This document shows positions 15,996 through 32,547 of a stretch of 41,339 nt of DNA, one piece after another (positions within the stretch are counted from its first letter, which is position 1; the number at the start of each line of letters is the position of its first letter). The DNA comes from an uncultured bacterium (GTDB lineage: Bacteria; Bacteroidota; Bacteroidia; Bacteroidales; CAIXTV01): NCBI GenBank assembly GCA_903922465.1, contig CAIXTV010000150.1, forward strand, positions 1 through 41,339, read 5' to 3'. The notes under the pieces are model-generated. The model did not search any database, had not been told where the DNA came from, and saw nothing but the letters and a program-made list of their open reading frames with translations. The position numbers and the translations under genes were made by a program.

Positions 15996-16003
15996 TATCT
16001 TTG
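15996..16003 (+). promoter_or_regulatory. -7 promoter element for the radical SAM/peptide operon
   Basis: TATCTTTG matches TAnnTTTG, with TTA about 20 nt upstream at the -33 position. It gives a leader of ~40 nt before the ATG at 16050 and makes the maturase-peptide pair a separate unit from the YiiX-like gene. Confidence 0.55.
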
Positions 16004-16049: not shown

Positions 16050-17105
16050 ATGGGGAAAATAAATTACATCATCATAAAAGCCAATGGCAATTGTAATTTA
16101 AATTGCACATACTGCTATTATACCCAGCATCAGTTGTCTGAATGGAAAACTGCTTATAATTTAGACCTCCTAGAGATAACTTTTAAAAAGATTGCCGATT
16201 ACACCGACATCATTACAATTTGCTGGCATGGCGGAGAACCTTTGTTGAATGGGGTAGATTATTTCAGAAAAGCAATCGAAATTCAACGTAAATACAAGCT
16301 TAAAGTCGAAAATAATCTTCAAACCAACGGGACTTTGATTAATAATGAATGGGCCGAGTTCTTTAAGGAAAATAATTTCTCGGTTGGATTGAGTCTTGAT
16401 GGCAATAAGGAGACTCATGATTTAAACCGATTAAAAAATAACACATCCTCCTACGATAAAGTACTCGATGGCTTAAATATTTTAATTAAGCACAAAGTTA
16501 AGCATGGTGTTTTATGTTATGCAAACCCCGACACAGATAGTGTTGCTATATTCCGTCACTTTGTTCAACTTGGGATTAGAAAGATTGATTTTATGCTTCC
16601 CATTATTTCCCACCATTCAAATGCTGAAGTTGATGTGGAAAAAGTCAGTAATTATTTCATCCAATTATTTCACGAATGGTTTGATTTGAATAATCCCAAT
16701 ATCAAAATCAGAATATTCGAAGATATTCTTTCTCTTTTATTAGGAGGAAAGGCAAATAACTGTTTGTTTAAAAACCAATGCGGTGGTTTTATTACCATTG
16801 AACCAAATGGCGACATTGGAATTTGCGAAAATCATAGAATTAATGGGTTTGAAAATTATCTTTTAAATAAAAATATTCTGCACGACAATTTTATTTCAAT
16901 TGAGAATGAAGCGCATATTAGAAATGAAAACATTAATAAATTATCCAATGAATGTCTGAATTGCAATCTGCTTCCATGGTGCAATGGAGGCTGTTCGGTT
17001 GAGAGATTTTTTGATGGATTTAAAAATATTAATGTGTATTGCAGGGTATATAAAAATATTTTTAGTAATTTAGCTGAAAGAATTTATGTTCAACCAAAAA
17101 AATGA
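16050..17105 (+). CDS. Radical SAM/SPASM peptide maturase
   Basis: This 351-residue enzyme has the radical SAM cluster C15-N-L-N-C19-T-Y-C22 (Cx3Cx2C), and WHGGEPLL shortly after, as in other SPASM maturases. The C-terminal SPASM domain has Cys near 238, 244 and 259, then Cx2Cx5Cx3C (302, 305, 311, 315) and a last Cys near 331, enough for two auxiliary Fe-S clusters. Related SPASM enzymes (anSME, cyclophane synthases, sactisynthases) modify peptides or proteins by radical chemistry. It is followed 6 nt downstream by a 68-residue peptide gene, so a RiPP maturase role is likely. An in-frame TTG at 16044 is a poorer start than the ATG at 16050. No separate RRE domain, protease or transporter gene is adjacent. 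Confidence 0.9.
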   Translation: MGKINYIIIKANGNCNLNCTYCYYTQHQLSEWKTAYNLDLLEITFKKIADYTDIITICWHGGEPLLNGVDYFRKAIEIQRKYKLKVENNLQTNGTLINNEWAEFFKENNFSVGLSLDGNKETHDLNRLKNNTSSYDKVLDGLNILIKHKVKHGVLCYANPDTDSVAIFRHFVQLGIRKIDFMLPIISHHSNAEVDVEKVSNYFIQLFHEWFDLNNPNIKIRIFEDILSLLLGGKANNCLFKNQCGGFITIEPNGDIGICENHRINGFENYLLNKNILHDNFISIENEAHIRNENINKLSNECLNCNLLPWCNGGCSVERFFDGFKNINVYCRVYKNIFSNLAERIYVQPKK

Positions 17106-17111
17106 TGTATT

Positions 17112-17318
17112 ATGGAAAAAGGATTCACCAATAGTATCTCTTTTGAAAATTTAACGGTAGAAGAGATAATGAAACTTCCTATTAGGGAAGATCTAAAGAA
17201 TGAAATTGTTTTAGAAATCTTAAAGAATTCTGAAACATCTAGGCAGGCTATTGATGTCTGCAAACCAGTTTATAGTTGGGGTAATCAATGGAGAGATCAC
17301 ATTCCCGATAGTATATAA
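17112..17318 (+). CDS. Putative RiPP precursor peptide (radical SAM substrate)
   Basis: The gene encodes a 68-residue peptide beginning 6 nt after the maturase stop, so the two are almost certainly co-transcribed. Residues 1-48 are charged and helix-prone (FENLTVEEIMKLPIREDLK), like a leader. The tail (49-68) is different: V-C-K-P-V-Y-S-W-G-N-Q-W-R-D-H-I-P-D-S-I. It contains W56-G-N58 and W60-R-D62, plus Y54-S-W56. Aromatic-x-Asn/Asp triplets are the crosslinking sites in cyclophane (triceptide) RiPPs made by radical SAM/SPASM enzymes. There is one Cys (C50). No GG cleavage site is evident. The modification type is inference from motif and context. Confidence 0.7.
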   Translation: MEKGFTNSISFENLTVEEIMKLPIREDLKNEIVLEILKNSETSRQAIDVCKPVYSWGNQWRDHIPDSI

Positions 17319-17549
17319 TTTTCTTTCTACAAAGATCAGGCTCATTGCAGGATTTTTTGATTAAGGAGGCTTTTCTTTACTGGCATTTGCAGTGGGTTCA
17401 TTCAATTAAATGAATACCCAAAAAGTTTCACTTGATCATACTAAAGTTTTGTTGTGTGTTAAAAGGATAATAAGCGGTTTTATTATTCTAATAGCTGTGC
17501 TTTGTCTGAACATTACCTTACGGTATACATTTACCCAAAATCAAATACG

Positions 17550-20500
17550 ATGAGAAGACTAATTTTTCTTCTTTTGTTTACATTTCTACTCTTTTCGTGC
17601 CATCAACAAAAGGAAAAGAAAAGTTTAGGCTCTTCCACTCCTTTAATAGTTGAAGCTAAGGGATATATTGTCCCTATGGAATCGTTGCGAAAGCCAAACG
17701 TCTTATACATCGACACCAACAAACTTAAGAAAATTGCCGCCCCAAAGCCCACTATCATTGCCTTTGATAAAAGTATTTGTCCTGTTAAAAAACCAAATTT
17801 CAGCAAAGCAGGAATCCCTAAAATAGCGATTCCCGGACAAACTCCCTATGGTTTACCAAAAATCAGGAAAGCAATCGATAGTTCTTTTATTGCAGGAATC
17901 CCCGAAGTTGTTGAAGCGAAAGCACCATATACCAAAGATCAAAATCCTCAAAACTTCTCCTCTTATAGTAAATTGCAGGGGTTAAAACAGCAAAACATCT
18001 ATTGTATGCTAGAAGATAAGGCTGGAAATCTCTGGTTTGGCACCAATGGTGGTGGAGCCTCTAAGTTTGATGGAAAATCTTTCACTCATTACAGCAGAAA
18101 AGAGGGTTTATCAAGCAATGTAGTCCGTTGCATGATGGAAGACAAGAAAGGAAACATTTGGTTCGGCTCCTTCAACGGGGGGCTTAGTCGGTTCGATGGA
18201 ATCTCGTTTAGCCGCTTCACCACCAACAACGGTCTTTCGAATAACGACATCTTTTGTATGTTGGAAGACAATGCTGGAAACATTTGGCTAGGAACCAACG
18301 GTGGTGGAGTTTGCCGTTTCGATGGGAAAAACTTCACGAATTATACCGACAATGAAGGCTTATCGAATAATTTCGTCTTAAGTATTTTACAAGACAAAAA
18401 GGGGAATATCTGGTTTGGCACCAACGGAGGGGGAGCATGTCGTTTCGATGGTAAATCCTTCGCAATATACACCACGAATGAAGGTTTGTCAAACAATAAT
18501 GTCTACTCAATGCTTGAAGATAAGAGCGGAAACATATGGCTTGCTACTTTCGGAGGGGGGGTGAGCCGATTCGACGGAACTTCCTTTTGTAACTTCACAA
18601 CTAACGAAAATCTTGCTAACAATATGGTCAGGGCGGCGATAGAAGACAAGAACGGAAATCTCTGGTTTGGCACCGACGGTGGAGGTGTTTGCAAGTTCGA
18701 CGGAGAATCTTTCACTCGATATACGTCTAAAGATGGTCTTTCAAGCAATGTAATTATTAGTATGCTCCAAGACAGCAAAGGAAATCTTTGGTTCGGCACC
18801 TACGATGGAGGGGTGAATCGATTTGACGGAAAATCATTCACCCATTTCACCGAAAGCGAAGGCCTTTCGAACAAACACATCAATTGCATTTTCAAAGATA
18901 AAAAGGGAAACATTTGGCTGGGCTCCGAAAAAGGGGAAGTGAACAAATATGACGGGAAAACCTTCGTGCAATATTCTCTAAAAGAAAGTTTTTCGAACAA
19001 AGACGTTCTATGTATAACAGAAGACCGAAAAGGAAACCTCTGGTTTGGCAGCAATGGTGGTGGGCTTTGCAAGTTCGACGGAAAATGGTTTAGCTATTAC
19101 ACTTCGAAAGATGGTATATCTTATAATTATATTTATTGCCTGCAGGAAGATAAAAACGGAAAGCTTTGGTTGGGAACTTATGGAGAGGGAGTTTACCAAT
19201 TCAACGGAAGTTCATTTACCCACTACACTTCAGAAGAAGGCCTTTCGAACAATGATGTTTTTAGCATTTATGAAGATAAGTCAGGAAACCTTTGGTTTGG
19301 CACTGGCGACGGAAAAGCAAGCAAGTTTGACGGCAAATCCTTCACACATTTCTCGATAAAAGAAGGCTTTAGCAATAATGCCATCAGGGCAGTGTTTGAG
19401 GATAAGAATGCGAACCTCTGGTTTGGCACCTATGGAAGCGGAGTATGCCGATTCGACGGGAAATCCTTCATACATTACACTGTTGATGATGGTTTATCAA
19501 GCAATAATGTATTAAGCATTATGGAAGACAAGAATAATAACCTCTGGTTTGGGACCAGCTTTGGAATTAGCAAACTTTCAGTAAACAAATTAAATGAAAT
19601 CGAAACTCCACTAAATCCAAATAAAGAAGTTAATGTTATTTTCAGGAACTACACTTATGAAGATGGCTTTTTAGGGGTGGGCGTCAATACAGGGAAATCT
19701 CTTTGTGAAGATAATAATGGCACCATTTGGATTGCTACTAACGACCGATTGACTGCATACCACCCCCAAGGAGAGACATCCGACACCATTCCTCCCAATA
19801 TTCAACTCACAGGAATCGAACTGTTTAATGAAAAGATTAATTGGATTAATTTACAATATAAAAAAGACACCACATTCCAATTAGACAATGGTGTAAGCGT
19901 TGGGGATTTTATTTTTTCAGGAATTTCGAAATGGAATTCTTTGCCCGAAAACCTAAGTTTAGCTTATAACAATAACTACCTTACTTTTAAGTTCATTGGA
20001 ATCACTCAAAAAAGTCCTCGCAAAACTCAATACTGCTATAAATTAGAAGGAATGGATGAAAACTGGAATACAATCACCAGCCTGACCGAAGCACACTATG
20101 GTAACCTTCCTGCCAAAACCTTCACCTTTAAAGTAAAAGCCATGAACTGCGAAGGATATTGGAGCGATGAACTTCAATACAGCTTCACCATTCGTCCACC
20201 CTGGTGGAAAACTTGGTGGGCCTACATATTATATGTTGTTTCCTCCATTTCTGCCATAGTTTTCTATATAAAACGAAGGGAGAAGACCTTAAAAGAACGA
20301 CAAAAAGTCCTCGAACAAACCGTTGAAGAACGAACTGCCGAAGTAGTATCAGAAAAAAGAATTGTAGAAAAACAGAAAGCCGAATTAGAGATAGAAAAAA
20401 GACGTAGCGATGACCTCTTGCTCAATATTCTTCCCGAAGAAGTTGCTGAAGAACTCAAACAAAAAGGAAGTGCCGAAGCCCGTCAGTTCGATGACGTAAC

Positions 20501-21068
20501 CGTTATGTTTACCGACTTCAAAAACTTTACACAGATCACTGAAAAACTTTCACCATCCGAGCTTGTTGCAGAAATACACAAGTACTTTATTGGTTTCGAC
20601 GAGATAATCAGTAAATATAATATCGAAAAAATTAAAACCATTGGCGATAGCTATATGTGTGCCGGTGGCTTGACCAAAAATAATAAAACCACAGCCATCG
20701 ACGTCCTTAAGGCAGCTCTCGAAATAAGAGAATTCATAAAACAATACCTCTACGACACCAAAAAAGAGATTAGTGAACCTTTCGAAATAAGGATAGGAAT
20801 TCATACAGGCTCAGTTGTTGCAGGAATAGTGGGCAATAAAAAATTCGCCTACGACATTTGGGGCGATACAGTGAATATTGCTTCTAGAATGGAAAGCAGT
20901 GGAGACGCTGGTAAAATAAATATTAGCGGTGCAACCTACGAATTGGTTAAAGATGCATTCAATTGTAGCTATCGAGGCAAAGTTCCTGCTAAGAATAAGG
21001 GGGAGATTGATATGTATTTTGTGGAAGTCCGAAATCCTGAAGATATACCCACAATGCAGGAAAATTAG
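17550..21068 (+). CDS. Lipoprotein receptor adenylate cyclase (Reg_prop propeller, Y_Y_Y, TM, class III cyclase)
   Basis: This 1,172-residue protein joins an extracytoplasmic sensor to a cytoplasmic cyclase. It has a lipoprotein-type signal (LLLFTFLLFSC, Cys17). Fourteen Reg_prop blades follow at about residues 147-735: thirteen regular ~39-residue units with N-L/I-W-F-G-T...F-D-G, plus a later T-I-W-I-A-T-N. A Y_Y_Y domain spans about 800-885, then a membrane segment (~889-907), a coiled coil and a class III cyclase domain (~975-1165). Metal-binding Asp is in MFTDF (about 989) and TIGDSY (about 1033). The adenine-specifying Lys in EKIKTIG and Asp in YDIWGD point to ATP, and the N-x-A-S-R motif is present. 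These sensors usually feed histidine kinases. An in-frame TTG at 17502 is less likely than the ATG at 17550. Confidence 0.9.
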   Translation: MRRLIFLLLFTFLLFSCHQQKEKKSLGSSTPLIVEAKGYIVPMESLRKPNVLYIDTNKLKKIAAPKPTIIAFDKSICPVKKPNFSKAGIPKIAIPGQTPYGLPKIRKAIDSSFIAGIPEVVEAKAPYTKDQNPQNFSSYSKLQGLKQQNIYCMLEDKAGNLWFGTNGGGASKFDGKSFTHYSRKEGLSSNVVRCMMEDKKGNIWFGSFNGGLSRFDGISFSRFTTNNGLSNNDIFCMLEDNAGNIWLGTNGGGVCRFDGKNFTNYTDNEGLSNNFVLSILQDKKGNIWFGTNGGGACRFDGKSFAIYTTNEGLSNNNVYSMLEDKSGNIWLATFGGGVSRFDGTSFCNFTTNENLANNMVRAAIEDKNGNLWFGTDGGGVCKFDGESFTRYTSKDGLSSNVIISMLQDSKGNLWFGTYDGGVNRFDGKSFTHFTESEGLSNKHINCIFKDKKGNIWLGSEKGEVNKYDGKTFVQYSLKESFSNKDVLCITEDRKGNLWFGSNGGGLCKFDGKWFSYYTSKDGISYNYIYCLQEDKNGKLWLGTYGEGVYQFNGSSFTHYTSEEGLSNNDVFSIYEDKSGNLWFGTGDGKASKFDGKSFTHFSIKEGFSNNAIRAVFEDKNANLWFGTYGSGVCRFDGKSFIHYTVDDGLSSNNVLSIMEDKNNNLWFGTSFGISKLSVNKLNEIETPLNPNKEVNVIFRNYTYEDGFLGVGVNTGKSLCEDNNGTIWIATNDRLTAYHPQGETSDTIPPNIQLTGIELFNEKINWINLQYKKDTTFQLDNGVSVGDFIFSGISKWNSLPENLSLAYNNNYLTFKFIGITQKSPRKTQYCYKLEGMDENWNTITSLTEAHYGNLPAKTFTFKVKAMNCEGYWSDELQYSFTIRPPWWKTWWAYILYVVSSISAIVFYIKRREKTLKERQKVLEQTVEERTAEVVSEKRIVEKQKAELEIEKRRSDDLLLNILPEEVAEELKQKGSAEARQFDDVTVMFTDFKNFTQITEKLSPSELVAEIHKYFIGFDEIISKYNIEKIKTIGDSYMCAGGLTKNNKTTAIDVLKAALEIREFIKQYLYDTKKEISEPFEIRIGIHTGSVVAGIVGNKKFAYDIWGDTVNIASRMESSGDAGKINISGATYELVKDAFNCSYRGKVPAKNKGEIDMYFVEVRNPEDIPTMQEN
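17985..19575 (+). repeat. ~117-bp coding tandem repeats (Reg_prop blades)
   Basis: Within the cyclase gene, thirteen consecutive units of about 39 codons repeat at DNA level, with recurring strings such as CTCTGGTTTGGCACC and TTCGACGGAAAATC. The units are diverged enough to be stable, but similarity is high enough for slipped recombination to change blade number. Confidence 0.75.
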
Positions 21069-21806: not shown

Positions 21807-21881
21807 TGGGATGTACTGGATTCGAACCAGTGACCTCATGCCTGTCAAGCATGCGTTCTAAACCAACTGAACTAACATCCC
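21807..21881 (-). tRNA. tRNA-Val (anticodon GAC)
   Basis: Read on the minus strand, the 7-bp acceptor stem GGGATGT/ACATCCC closes a full cloverleaf. The D-arm is AGTTCAGTTGGTTTAGAAC, the anticodon arm is CATGC-TTGACAG-GCATG, and the T-arm is ACTGG-TTCGAAT-CCAGT. Loop position 34-36 is GAC, which reads GUC/GUU valine codons. CCA is not encoded. It stands alone, with its own promoter and terminator. Confidence 0.93.
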
Positions 21882-28597: not shown

Positions 28598-30511
28598 TTA
28601 ATACACTATTAACTTCCCAAAACGGCTTACTTTTCCTGCACGAAACTCATAGGTATATACATTGTTATTGGGCAAAGTAAAACTCTGGATTTCTCCTCTT
28701 AAAATAGTCTTCGTAAAGACATACCTCCCTTGCAAATCATATATATGAAGTTGTCCTGCTTCATTCCCATCATAAGAAACAGAAACCACTCCCTCAGATG
28801 GATTAGGATAAACAACTAATGAATTAGATTTTAGTAAGAGAGGTTGAATTTGGGTTCCTGAAGTGCTTTCAATATTTATTTTACCCAAATGCAAACTAAA
28901 TGGCCCCGAAGAAGAAATATGTAACAGAATCTCAATTAGGGTATCAGAAACAGCAACATTGAAATCGTTATTCGTTAGGACTTCCCAATTCCCACTTAGG
29001 CTTGGATAAAACGAAGAAACAACAGGAGTAATACTATTCTTCTTTCTCAATTCAACAGAAACCGAATCGATGGTATTAGAAGAAGACTTAAGAGCAAGTT
29101 CAATATTTAATCTGTCGCTTATGGTGACCATTTCTGTAGAATAAAGAGGAATAGTATAACTTCCTGTGGCCGCAGCAACTATCGACAAAGAAGAACCTCC
29201 CGAAAATGCTGTGTTAAAATCATAATTTATACTAAGACTATTAGCATAAAAAGTCCATGAAGGCAAAGGTGATTGATGTGAGATATTGCTCCACGAACCT
29301 GATATTAATATGTTTCCATTATCGTAATAATTAAATCCATGTCCTGTATTGAAATCAGTTTGAAATGGTAATGAAATAATATTGCTGCGCACAGGTATAT
29401 AGTTCCCAATGCCCTTCCAAGTTGAATCCACATTAAAAGGGTCCTGATCTACACCTGAAAATATTTTTCTTTCTGAGCTATAAAAAGCATTATAAGCCGA
29501 CGAATCGGTATTAAAAGTAGAAAATGTAGCGTAATTAAAAGTGAAATTGGGAGCAAATAGTGCAATGGAAGTTTTGGCAACTCCATTTGTAATAATTTTA
29601 TCTATCCAACTATAACTGCTAAAAGCTGGTTGCGCAGTACGTCCGGGCCAAATATCTGCTCCAGTATATACATTAAATGGACTAAATCCCAGTCCTGTTG
29701 CATAGGTATTCGATCCACTGACGGTTGAAGTTGATGACCATGAATAATTTGTAAACAAACCCGTTGAATGTTGGAAAAAATATGCATTGCTGGAGTTCAA
29801 ACAGTTTTGATACGAAACCGAACCACTCTGAAGCATGGCATCGTACCAAATTACTTCACCAGCATATGCACTATCGAGTTTTTTTACGAATAATGAAGCC
29901 AAAGCTCCGGTTGTTGAGTTAACCGATGTTTCGAAATTAAGCAGCCACCCATCAAAGTTATAGTAGTTGGCTATTTCTATCATTTTCGCGGCAGCAATAA
30001 AATTCCCAAAAGCATCTTGTTGCAAAAAACTCTGAACTGCAGTTTGTGATCCTCCATAAACAGCAGGAGCCATAAACACTGTCCCTATCACCTTAACTCC
30101 ATTTTTATGTGCCGCATCAACCCACGATTTGGCAGGTATGATAATAGGTGTACTTGCACTTCCGCCAAACCACGAAAGAATATCGATATATTGCCAATGC
30201 GAGAAATTAAAAAGATTAAACTTTGCGGCAGAATCGATATACGTTCCAAAATTATTCATCCCATCGGGACAATACAGTATTTTGGCATTCGAATCGAGTA
30301 AAGTTCCATACTGATAGTTAGGCGAAATCTTTCGTTCACATATAGGAATAGTAGAAATATTCTGAGGAGTAATGCTTGAAGGCTGCCAGTTTAAAAGTTC
30401 GCTTATTGTGAACTTAAGCGCTGGCTGCGCTCTTAGTTCTGGCGAAAACAGCACGATTATGAAGACAGTCAGACAATAGGCAAGGCAACGATTATGAAAA
30501 GTAGATTTCAT
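28598..30511 (-). CDS. Secreted GH85 endo-beta-N-acetylglucosaminidase with T9SS type A signal
   Basis: The 637-residue protein should cleave the chitobiose core of N-glycans outside the cell. After a signal peptide (ending LRAQ) comes a GH85 catalytic domain (~30-370). F-S-H-W-Q-Y-I-D-I-L-S-W-F, S-W-V-D-A-A-H-K-N-G-V-K-V-I-G-T and Y-Y-N-F-D-G-W-L-L-N-F-E match the family. The final motif supplies the catalytic pair N192/E194, corresponding to the Asn/Glu of substrate-assisted GH85 enzymes. I-W-Y-D-A-M-L-Q-S-G with Y-Q-N is also typical. A beta-sandwich (~390-550) and a T9SS type A sorting domain (VYPNPSEG...IYDLQGRYV) end it. No other glycan-degradation genes are adjacent. Confidence 0.88.
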   Translation of the reverse strand: MKSTFHNRCLAYCLTVFIIVLFSPELRAQPALKFTISELLNWQPSSITPQNISTIPICERKISPNYQYGTLLDSNAKILYCPDGMNNFGTYIDSAAKFNLFNFSHWQYIDILSWFGGSASTPIIIPAKSWVDAAHKNGVKVIGTVFMAPAVYGGSQTAVQSFLQQDAFGNFIAAAKMIEIANYYNFDGWLLNFETSVNSTTGALASLFVKKLDSAYAGEVIWYDAMLQSGSVSYQNCLNSSNAYFFQHSTGLFTNYSWSSTSTVSGSNTYATGLGFSPFNVYTGADIWPGRTAQPAFSSYSWIDKIITNGVAKTSIALFAPNFTFNYATFSTFNTDSSAYNAFYSSERKIFSGVDQDPFNVDSTWKGIGNYIPVRSNIISLPFQTDFNTGHGFNYYDNGNILISGSWSNISHQSPLPSWTFYANSLSINYDFNTAFSGGSSLSIVAAATGSYTIPLYSTEMVTISDRLNIELALKSSSNTIDSVSVELRKKNSITPVVSSFYPSLSGNWEVLTNNDFNVAVSDTLIEILLHISSSGPFSLHLGKINIESTSGTQIQPLLLKSNSLVVYPNPSEGVVSVSYDGNEAGQLHIYDLQGRYVFTKTILRGEIQSFTLPNNNVYTYEFRAGKVSRFGKLIVY

Positions 30512-30592
30512 CTTTAGAGCAATTATAATTTATGGTAAAGGTAAGCTTTATTTCAATTGCCTTACGAAATAAATACTCATAGCATCTCCAAT

Positions 30593-32446
30593 TTATCCAG
30601 AAAAATTACTTTCCACAAAATACATATCTATCATTCCTTTATTCTTAGCTTGTATTTTTCCACGATAAGTGCAATTAAATTTATCTTTAACCAAATCATA
30701 AGTAGTTTCACTAATATTCACTTTCCCTTCTTCTCCACCGCTTTCCATACGTGATGCAACATTTACAGTATCGCCCCAGATGTCATAAGCAAACTTCTTC
30801 ACACCAACTATTCCTGCAACAACAGGACCAGTATGTATGCCTATTCTTACTTCAAAAAAAGGTGCACCCATGGCTATTTTATTTGCTTTTCCTGTTTCAA
30901 TAAACCGAAGTATTTCGAAGGCTGCACAAATTGCATCTGTTGCATGCGTTGTATTTGGATTAGGCAATCCTCCTGCAGCCATATACGAATCGCCAATGGT
31001 TTTTATTTTCTCTAATCCATGCTTCTCCATTATTAAATCGAAAGCCGAAAAACATTCGTGAATATCTTTAACCAGTTCCTTAGGACTTAACTTTTCCGAA
31101 ACAATAGTGAAACCTTTAAAGTCGGTAAACAATACCGTAACCTCATCAATTAATTTTGCATCGGCACTCCCTTTCAATTTTAATTCTTCCGCAACCTCGA
31201 ATGGGAGTATATTCAGCAATAAATTCTCAGAGCGTTCTTTTTCTTCTGAAATAATTTTATTCTTTCCCTCTAAGGCAATATTTGCATTTTGTTTTATTTT
31301 ATACCTGCTGTATAATACAATCAGCAGCAGTAGCAGAAGAGCTGAACCTATAAGGAATGAATTCCTGAGAATTCTCTCTTTTTGAATTTGTTGTAAGGCA
31401 ATTTCCTTATCTTTTATCTGACTAATTTTCTGATCATTTATCTTCCTCTTAAAATCGAACATACTTTGCATGTCAGCGACCTTTTGTTTAGTGCTTCCTT
31501 TAAAGAAAGTGTCTTTAGTGGTGCTCAATAAATCGAGATAATAGTATGCTTTTTTAAAATTTCCTTTGCGAGCATAGGCTTTACTTAATGTGGCTGTTGC
31601 CTCAACAAAGCTTATTTCATCAGACGAAGTGCTTGACATATTAAAGCTAAGCTGAGCATAATAAATAGCCTTTTCAATATTATTAGCCTGTAAATATACT
31701 GCTGAAACAAAAGCATAGGGCCTGCTTAAGTAACTCAATTCATTTTTAACTTTTAATTGGTCGATGGCTTTATTCAAATAGTAAAAAGCTGAATCGTGCT
31801 GATGCATTTTCGAATATAATTTACCCAAATACATATAACATTCATTTAGCCTGATTTGATTATTTCTTTTCTTATAAGCGTTTATCGACTTTGAGAAATA
31901 CTTTTTTGCTTCAGGAAAAATTTCTAATTCCGAATAAGATAATGCCATAAGGTAGTTTGATGTTGCATTATCGGAATAAGTCAATGAGAGTTTGAAGTTT
32001 TTTATTGCATCTTCATAATATTGTAAAATATAACTTGTCAATCCCAACTGAAGATAGCATTTCGATATGCCTAGGCTATCGTCTAGGCTCACGAAAACAG
32101 AAAGACTTTCGAGGAAGCATGGAGTAGAAATGGCATAACTATGTGTGCTTGCAATATGGAACTTCCCTTGATTTAATAAAGCTTCTGCCAGTCCTTTCGA
32201 ATATTTCAATCGTCTAGCTAATTTCGTTGCCTTATCTGAATAAAACCCGACACTATCTTTTCTGTTTCCTGATTCTTTTTCCCAATATTTTAAGGTTATT
32301 TTATTAAGAAGATCTACTTTCAGTGTATTTTCTCCACAATTTTTTAATAGTGCCAATAAAGAATCGAGACCACTATCAATATTATTCTGAGTAAGTCCAC
32401 TCAATACAAACAGTAGCATTAGTAATGAGAAAATCTTTTTTTTCAT
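30593..32446 (-). CDS. TPR-sensor membrane adenylate cyclase (class III)
   Basis: This 617-residue protein has a signal peptide (MKKKIFSLLMLLFVLSGLTQ), TPR repeats at about 40-300, a membrane segment (SFLIGSALLLLLLIVLYSRY, about 350-372), a short coiled coil and a class III cyclase domain (about 420-612). Metal Asp residues are in VLFTDFKGFT and TIGDSYMAAGG; the Lys in EKIKTIG and Asp in FAYDIWGD indicate ATP rather than GTP; N-V-A-S-R is present. The catalytic domain and the S-E-N-L-L-L-N-I-L-P linker are very similar to those of the 17550 cyclase, so the two are paralogues with different sensors. An alternative ATG lies three codons upstream (32455). It has a well-spaced promoter. Confidence 0.9.
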   Translation of the reverse strand: MKKKIFSLLMLLFVLSGLTQNNIDSGLDSLLALLKNCGENTLKVDLLNKITLKYWEKESGNRKDSVGFYSDKATKLARRLKYSKGLAEALLNQGKFHIASTHSYAISTPCFLESLSVFVSLDDSLGISKCYLQLGLTSYILQYYEDAIKNFKLSLTYSDNATSNYLMALSYSELEIFPEAKKYFSKSINAYKKRNNQIRLNECYMYLGKLYSKMHQHDSAFYYLNKAIDQLKVKNELSYLSRPYAFVSAVYLQANNIEKAIYYAQLSFNMSSTSSDEISFVEATATLSKAYARKGNFKKAYYYLDLLSTTKDTFFKGSTKQKVADMQSMFDFKRKINDQKISQIKDKEIALQQIQKERILRNSFLIGSALLLLLLIVLYSRYKIKQNANIALEGKNKIISEEKERSENLLLNILPFEVAEELKLKGSADAKLIDEVTVLFTDFKGFTIVSEKLSPKELVKDIHECFSAFDLIMEKHGLEKIKTIGDSYMAAGGLPNPNTTHATDAICAAFEILRFIETGKANKIAMGAPFFEVRIGIHTGPVVAGIVGVKKFAYDIWGDTVNVASRMESGGEEGKVNISETTYDLVKDKFNCTYRGKIQAKNKGMIDMYFVESNFSG

Positions 32447-32547
32447 TGCTCTCATCTGGGTTTAATAAAAATAATTTTCTAACACATTGTAAGATATTGG
32501 GTTTACAGTAGCAAATCTAATTTAATTCGATACATGAAAATGATATA

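Follow-up and report, generated by a model that had tools for sequence, protein, structure and literature searches.

We have identified, within a 41,339-base window (the whole stretch of DNA analysed, equal to contig C150 of a 5.02-Mb assembly in 312 contigs), what on balance we believe to be a minimal three-gene RiPP cassette composed of a SPASM enzyme, a triceptide-like peptide and, as the likeliest partner, a receptor nucleotidyl cyclase. Judged from the sequences, the enzyme and the peptide form a real minimal RiPP pair, whose product, by a chemistry that we infer, would most likely be triceptide-like and bear three-residue cyclophanes. The maturase gene (16050..17105, + strand; ATG at 16050, stop codon at 17103-17105) encodes 351 residues, and 6 nt separate its stop from the ATG of the precursor gene (17112..17318, + strand; ATG at 17112, stop codon at 17316-17318), coordinates that confirm the initial annotation in placing a 68-residue peptide 6 nt 3' of the maturase. 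That annotation had also described a SPASM maturase with an intact Cx3Cx2C plus Cx2Cx5Cx3C set, and all cysteines could be located: the radical SAM cluster motif is CNLNCTYC (CX3CX2C), and the SPASM cysteines are C244-x9-G254-x4-C259, C302-x2-C305-x5-C311-x3-C315 and C331. Since the first cluster cysteine is residue 15, the enzyme has no N-terminal extension able to hold a recognition domain. The third gene, which the initial annotation overlooked, starts at 17550 and encodes the receptor cyclase (17550..21068, + strand; ATG 17550 taken as the start, with an in-frame TTG at 17502).

The trio is bordered in the window by a C92/YiiX-like hydrolase upstream and by PNP, LpxK and adenine deaminase genes downstream, as assigned by Pfam. 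No transporter, protease or immunity gene adjoins the pair, in agreement with the earlier reading, and the cassette contains no exporter, PCAT or protease. The window also carries CHU_C (type IX secretion) and DUF5686 domains, which together with a TAnnTTTG-type promoter point to Bacteroidota. An Rfam scan of the window found nothing beyond one tRNA, whose gene (21807-21881, minus strand) begins about 740 bases past the cassette. Elsewhere on the contig, at 28598-32455 on the minus strand, the gene for a GH85 family glycosidase adjoins that for a TPR protein (30593-32455) whose class III cyclase domain makes it the second cyclase of the contig.

The comparison that carries our proposal is with a second locus, in G353, a genome that belongs to the same order but to a different family. 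When 393 genomes of this order were searched, G353 alone, besides the window's own genome, yielded a close maturase (L019), which is 62% identical to the window enzyme; a small ORF of 66 residues begins 6 nt after it. The two peptides match each other by blastp (E 2e-7), with tails that agree at 10 of 11 positions (W-x-N-Q-W-R-D-H-I-P-D) and leaders that agree at about 14 of 55. The leaders appear to be at best weakly related, their local alignment score being matched by 2.5% of 2,000 shuffles, and the core codons differ between the two genomes by three silent changes (N, H and P) and one replacement (G/K). Because the tail was conserved while the leaders diverged, W56-x-N58 and W60-R-D62 are probably under constraint, a view that draws on a single comparison of the pair between two genomes. 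When 78 ORFs of the window were compared one by one with 26 from a 16-kb G353 stretch, blastp gave 14 pairs, three of which are collinear: the maturase (62%), the peptide and the cyclase (61%). The other 11 comprise ORFs that overlap the cyclases in antisense or in another frame, the second cyclase of the window and two weak matches (29-31%) of large window proteins at 34.7-40.4 kb to a protein encoded at the distal end of the G353 sequence. In both genomes the peptide and cyclase genes lie on the same strand, with a gap of 231 nt in the window and 235 nt in G353. The G353 flanks consist of a PKD/Por_Secre_tail protein upstream of the maturase and a sigma factor and others downstream. Because the trio keeps its order in both genomes amid otherwise different neighbours, it looks like a three-gene cassette that, in these two genomes, outlasted the turnover of its immediate surroundings. 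The C92 hydrolase was rejected as a partner: G353 has another gene in that place, and no ORF of the 16-kb stretch matches the YiiX-like hydrolase (15177) to which the initial annotation had given that speculative role.

The window peptide ends in VYSWGNQWRDHIPDSI, which contains Y54-S-W56, W56-G-N58 and W60-R-D62. We divide it into a leader of roughly residues 1-55 and a conserved core, W56-[G/K]-N-Q-W-R-D-H-I-P-D66, whose codons in the window (WGNQWRDHIPD, 17277..17309, + strand) include the candidate crosslinks W56-N58 and W60-D62. Both of the latter triplets, which had been recognised from the window alone, are kept in the G353 homolog; the third one proposed, Y54-S-W56, is present in the window peptide but reads I-A-W in G353. 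Shuffling the window peptide 200,000 times gave at least two W-x-[N/D] triplets in 1.6% of cases, compared with 3.6% for the G353 peptide, and the window peptide is the only one among 157 window ORFs of 40-130 aa with two such triplets within its last 25 residues. No Pfam or NCBIfam family matches it, and neither a hydrophobic signal nor a GG-type leader-cleavage motif was found in it. The cyclophane (triceptide-like) pair put forward in the initial annotation is thus retained as a maturase and a precursor with conserved triplets and putative crosslinks, but it loses Y54-S-W56 and the hydrolase.

Across all genome sets searched (393 genomes for the order, 395 for the class, 395 for the phylum and 176 relatives of G353, in overlapping sets), a close maturase occurs only in the genome of the window itself (G000), which is the sole member of its family in the searched set, and in G353. 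Other matches in these sets are distant, with an identity of at most 38% where it was shown for near-full-length matches, and none of the four other genomes of the G353 family has the maturase at E <= 1e-60. Searching 395 genomes of the phylum with the peptide returned its own genome and one weak match in G544 (E 0.008, within a 461-residue frame); the plasmids searched with the peptide gave no match, and the viral contigs matched neither the core DNA pattern nor the maturase profile.

With respect to known families, the maturase scores 68.6 bits against Pfam Radical_SAM and draws 70 NCBIfam models at E <= 1; among the best 25 of these 70, from which its scores below are taken, it reaches no curated cut-off. 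The top model is the sulfatase maturase TIGR03942 (246 bits against a cut-off of 349), which is also the top single model for L019 (243 bits) and for L029 (271 bits), a distant locus discussed below. Cyclophane models score lower, with YhhB at 184 bits (cut-off 445), DynA (NF041298) at 181 (450), FxsB at 163 (370), GrrM/OscB at 134 (310), XyeB at 124 (450) and AmcB at 118 (425), as do PapB (125 of 340) and DarE (116 of 650); L019 scores 190 bits against DynA. Among five matches to solved structures, the best two are the sulfatase-maturating enzymes 4k36 and 4k37, followed by ChlB (9gm3), and the AlphaFold model of the maturase (mean pLDDT 52) was too poor for use. By these model scores, we regard the maturase as a member of an unnamed SPASM subfamily outside the named cyclophane subfamilies.

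The maturase also lies outside the sulfatase-maturase clade, by score and by tree. In a tree of 38 rows, the window enzyme among them, 25 rows of sulfatase-maturase type group as one clade (support 100/99), and the four clade rows whose TIGR03942 scores were checked (L004, L021, L022 and L026) all pass the cut-off with 449-500 bits. The window enzyme and L019 pair at 100/98 among the 13 rows outside this clade, in a part of the tree with several long branches, where the deeper order is unsupported and the letter make-up of this pair is odd. The residue after the cluster Cys is Asp in 24 of the 25 clade rows (Asn in L027) and Glu in the window enzyme and L019; we take the Asp to be the catalytic residue of sulfatase maturases, although a literature search on that residue turned up no fitting paper. 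All nine rows marked with a peptide neighbour, the peptides at non-clade rows having been chosen by eye, fall among the 13, and this label is not monophyletic in the tree, with four changes. We also surveyed small ORFs of 30-129 aa ending at most 450 nt upstream or starting at most 350 nt downstream (at L024 the 3' flank is just 139 nt long). At least two W-x-[N/D] triplets in one such ORF were found at none of the 25 clade loci versus 5 of the 13 other rows, namely the window, L019, L029, L091 and L017, although the ORF counted upstream of L017 is taken as spurious since it overlaps a likelier peptide in another frame. The expectation that homologous maturases would be followed by a peptide with conserved triplets is therefore borne out by the only close homolog, whose peptide has both W-x-N and W-x-D, but not by many distant ones (at most 38% identical), with 25 of the 36 other tree rows belonging to the sulfatase-maturase-type clade that lacks such a peptide.

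Several distant relatives have small peptides of their own. A contig scan gave 11 distant loci, of which the tree took L029 and left out the other ten; among those ten, the survey of neighbouring genes covered L036. L029 (748-2041 in the Paceibacterota MAG contig JAQVET010000060.1) encodes a maturase 32% identical to that of the window, and 31 or 40 nt past it begins a peptide of 59 or 56 aa (GTG or ATG start, respectively) ending in WLDGWQNTYPWDNYEDFVDFPDAPPPR, a dense series of aromatic-x-D/N triplets. A search with the L029 maturase drew matches at E <= 1e-50 in 6 of 177 genomes of the phylum (7 loci). The downstream peptide at L089 has W-D-K, W-E-K, W-D-K and W-A-N (three W-x-K and one W-x-N), that at L091 has W-D-D, W-P-N, W-H-D twice and W-F-D, and a Tyr-rich peptide upstream of L090 has Y-D-N, Y-P-D and Y-S-N. 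By eye, such peptides occur in four of the six L029-type genomes, with none seen at L088, L092 and L093, which suggests from sequence that cyclophane-type RiPPs occur in Patescibacteria. In the same order as the window, the distant maturases L008 (G006) and L017 (G025) have upstream small ORFs ending in PPKYDNVAYPDTTYVRK and DNWSEYNESYDDYNDCHGDYYDAE, respectively, and these could possibly be further cyclophane precursors. In G012, the upstream peptide at L016 carries KGG and two RPDGEFSRGP repeats and the downstream peptide at L010 ends in DWGQQGQCGCVMGCLGG; neither looks triceptide-like.

The receptor cyclase of the window comprises 1172 residues, with a lipobox recognised by eye, 12 Reg_prop stretches, a Y_Y_Y domain, a single TM segment marked by a hydropathy maximum around residue 889, a coil and a Guanylate_cyc domain (PF00211, 190.9 bits against a cut-off of 21.9). 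FTD, GDSYM and DIWGDTVNIASR are visible by eye in its sequence, and we take them as candidates for catalytic or base-selecting cyclase residues, with Lys/Asp presumably favouring ATP; by these rules the product would probably be cAMP. By similar general rules of topology, we expect the propeller to be periplasmic and the cyclase domain cytosolic. The G353 ortholog has 9 Reg_prop stretches and is 61-62% identical overall; identity is highest in Y_Y_Y (76%) and the cyclase domain (74%), lower in the propeller (60%) and lowest over the first 140 residues (43%). Among six genomes searched with the window cyclase, it is the sole foreign match spanning nearly the full query in one piece. A lone propeller-cyclase in G783, a congener of G353, is likewise full-length and 47% identical over 1065 residues (L073:13626-16838, contig C101). 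Neither a maturase-like ORF nor a peptide-like one lies on its 17.8-kb contig, which also lacks any match to the core motifs, and no close maturase was found in the whole G783 genome.

Co-transcription of the trio seems plausible from the signals around it. An octamer, TATCTTTG (15996..16003, + strand), begins 54 nt 5' of the maturase ATG and fits TAnnTTTG, which we take to be the Bacteroidota -7 element consensus and which occurs 27 times on the + strand across the 41-kb window. The same octamer stands upstream of the G353 maturase (L040), beginning 38 nt before its ATG. The peptide-cyclase gap of the window contains neither TAnnTTTG nor a + strand terminator-like site, and its one sigma-70-like + strand match does not clearly exceed shuffles; the corresponding gap in G353 contains one TAnnTTTG.

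Taken together, we propose that the SPASM enzyme would recognise the leader of the peptide and thereby place its tail, after which W56 would be joined to N58 and W60 to D62; each of these two links would close a strained cyclophane of three residues and remove 2 H. The conserved 11 residues would then be the mature part of the peptide, released and exported by steps that we infer along with the topology of the receptor. With its propeller facing the periplasm and the cyclic nucleotide made inside, the receptor cyclase could contact the modified peptide as its receptor, or have its output tuned by it. Neither the peptide nor the rest of the cassette shows a cleavage motif, protease, exporter or hydrophobic signal that would account for the peptide reaching a periplasmic propeller. 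A bolder version, which we consider rather improbable, is a peptide-hormone-like unit in which a stapled RiPP switches cAMP through its own propeller adenylyl cyclase, either in the producer or in its neighbours.

The nature of the modification could differ from this scheme. SPASM enzymes make thioether (sactipeptide/ranthipeptide) and Lys-Trp (streptide-like) modifications, and PapB appears among the weaker-scoring models; such a product is nevertheless highly improbable here, given that the two peptides have no tail Cys or Lys in common. Even less credence is due to reading the enzyme as an anaerobic sulfatase maturase that makes formylglycine and the small ORF as incidental. Its attractions are the top model and best structure matches mentioned above together with C-K-P-V in the window tail, which comes near the sulfatase motif C-x-P-x-R, but Cys-x-Pro is not in the G353 peptide, the TIGR03942 score falls below a cut-off that the four control maturases pass, and the enzyme lies outside their clade with Glu for the usual Asp. 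A subtler alternative keeps the same pair and alters the link, either to an i,i+3 ring (W56-Q59 and W60-H63) or to a dynobactin-like crosslink pattern. The positions of the Trp links were taken solely from the motif, and Q59, R61, H63, I64, P65 and D66 are equally conserved; in addition, DynA is among the nearest models for both maturases, and Aro-x-x-Asn precursors are reported that are expected to form larger rings (PMC9062424). On the other hand, the DynA cut-off is far from reached, and N58 and D62 are the residue types used on Trp by known enzymes, in that XncB and OscB crosslink W-x-N and OscB also W-x-D, according to PMC11002830. We therefore regard a different link as unlikely and continue to favour i,i+2 cyclophanes.

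Harder to set aside is the reading that the pair makes a RiPP while the propeller-cyclase is merely a neighbour that travels with it without a functional tie, which we hold to be a serious possibility, if not one that we would bet on. It is raised by the lone G783 cyclase, which is full-length and stands without a maturase. The two loci and the gap of some 230 nt leave room for it, the maturase and cyclase genes of the window differ in GC (31.8% and 39.7%, respectively), and an unexported peptide would be separated from a periplasmic propeller by the inner membrane. What argues for the three-gene cassette instead is that the other adjacent genes were turned over while the trio stayed in order, and that maturase and cyclase have diverged equally, at about 62% identity each. 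If the trio is indeed a unit, it would supply both a stapled peptide and, in the gene beside it, a candidate for its target, and the role of this RiPP could be tested through cAMP. A further gain is an unnamed SPASM subfamily whose peptide core of 11 residues is sharply conserved. The surprising part is the association with the cyclase, not the ring chemistry, and it is this association that most needs more genomes; among the listed hits of our searches of open-licence papers, no radical SAM RiPP was linked to a receptor cyclase.

Compared with known systems, the maturase shares its superfamily and cluster layout with the anaerobic sulfatase-maturating enzymes (TIGR03942), its nearest solved structures, but occupies a separate place, has Glu for Asp and adjoins a precursor peptide. 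The dynobactin and darobactin maturases (DynA and DarE) are related SPASM enzymes whose substrates also have Trp-containing tails; in contrast, the conserved tail described here lacks both W-x-W and a conserved Lys, and the scores stay under the respective cut-offs. On the receptor side, propeller/Y_Y_Y hybrid two-component sensors occur in Bacteroides, and the window receptor resembles them in having Reg_prop, Y_Y_Y and one TM segment, whereas its output is a class III cyclase instead of a histidine kinase plus regulator. The closest parallel to the pair is provided by triceptides and 3-CyFE enzymes (XncB/XyeB, OscB/GrrM, MscB, YxdB, HaaB and YhhB), which likewise combine a SPASM enzyme with a small precursor carrying W-x-N or W-x-D in its tail and, in the two- and three-gene pathways described in PMC9062424, have an optional transporter. 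The window system differs from them in an enzyme below the cyclophane-family cut-offs (among the best 25 of 70 models), a precursor that belongs to no family, a crosslink that is predicted and an adjoining receptor cyclase. Finally, most of the nine Bacteroidales RiPP clusters described in PMC10352776 have PCAT transporters and GG leaders; these also appear to be radical SAM RiPPs of Bacteroidota, but the cassette described here has neither PCAT nor GG and includes a receptor cyclase.
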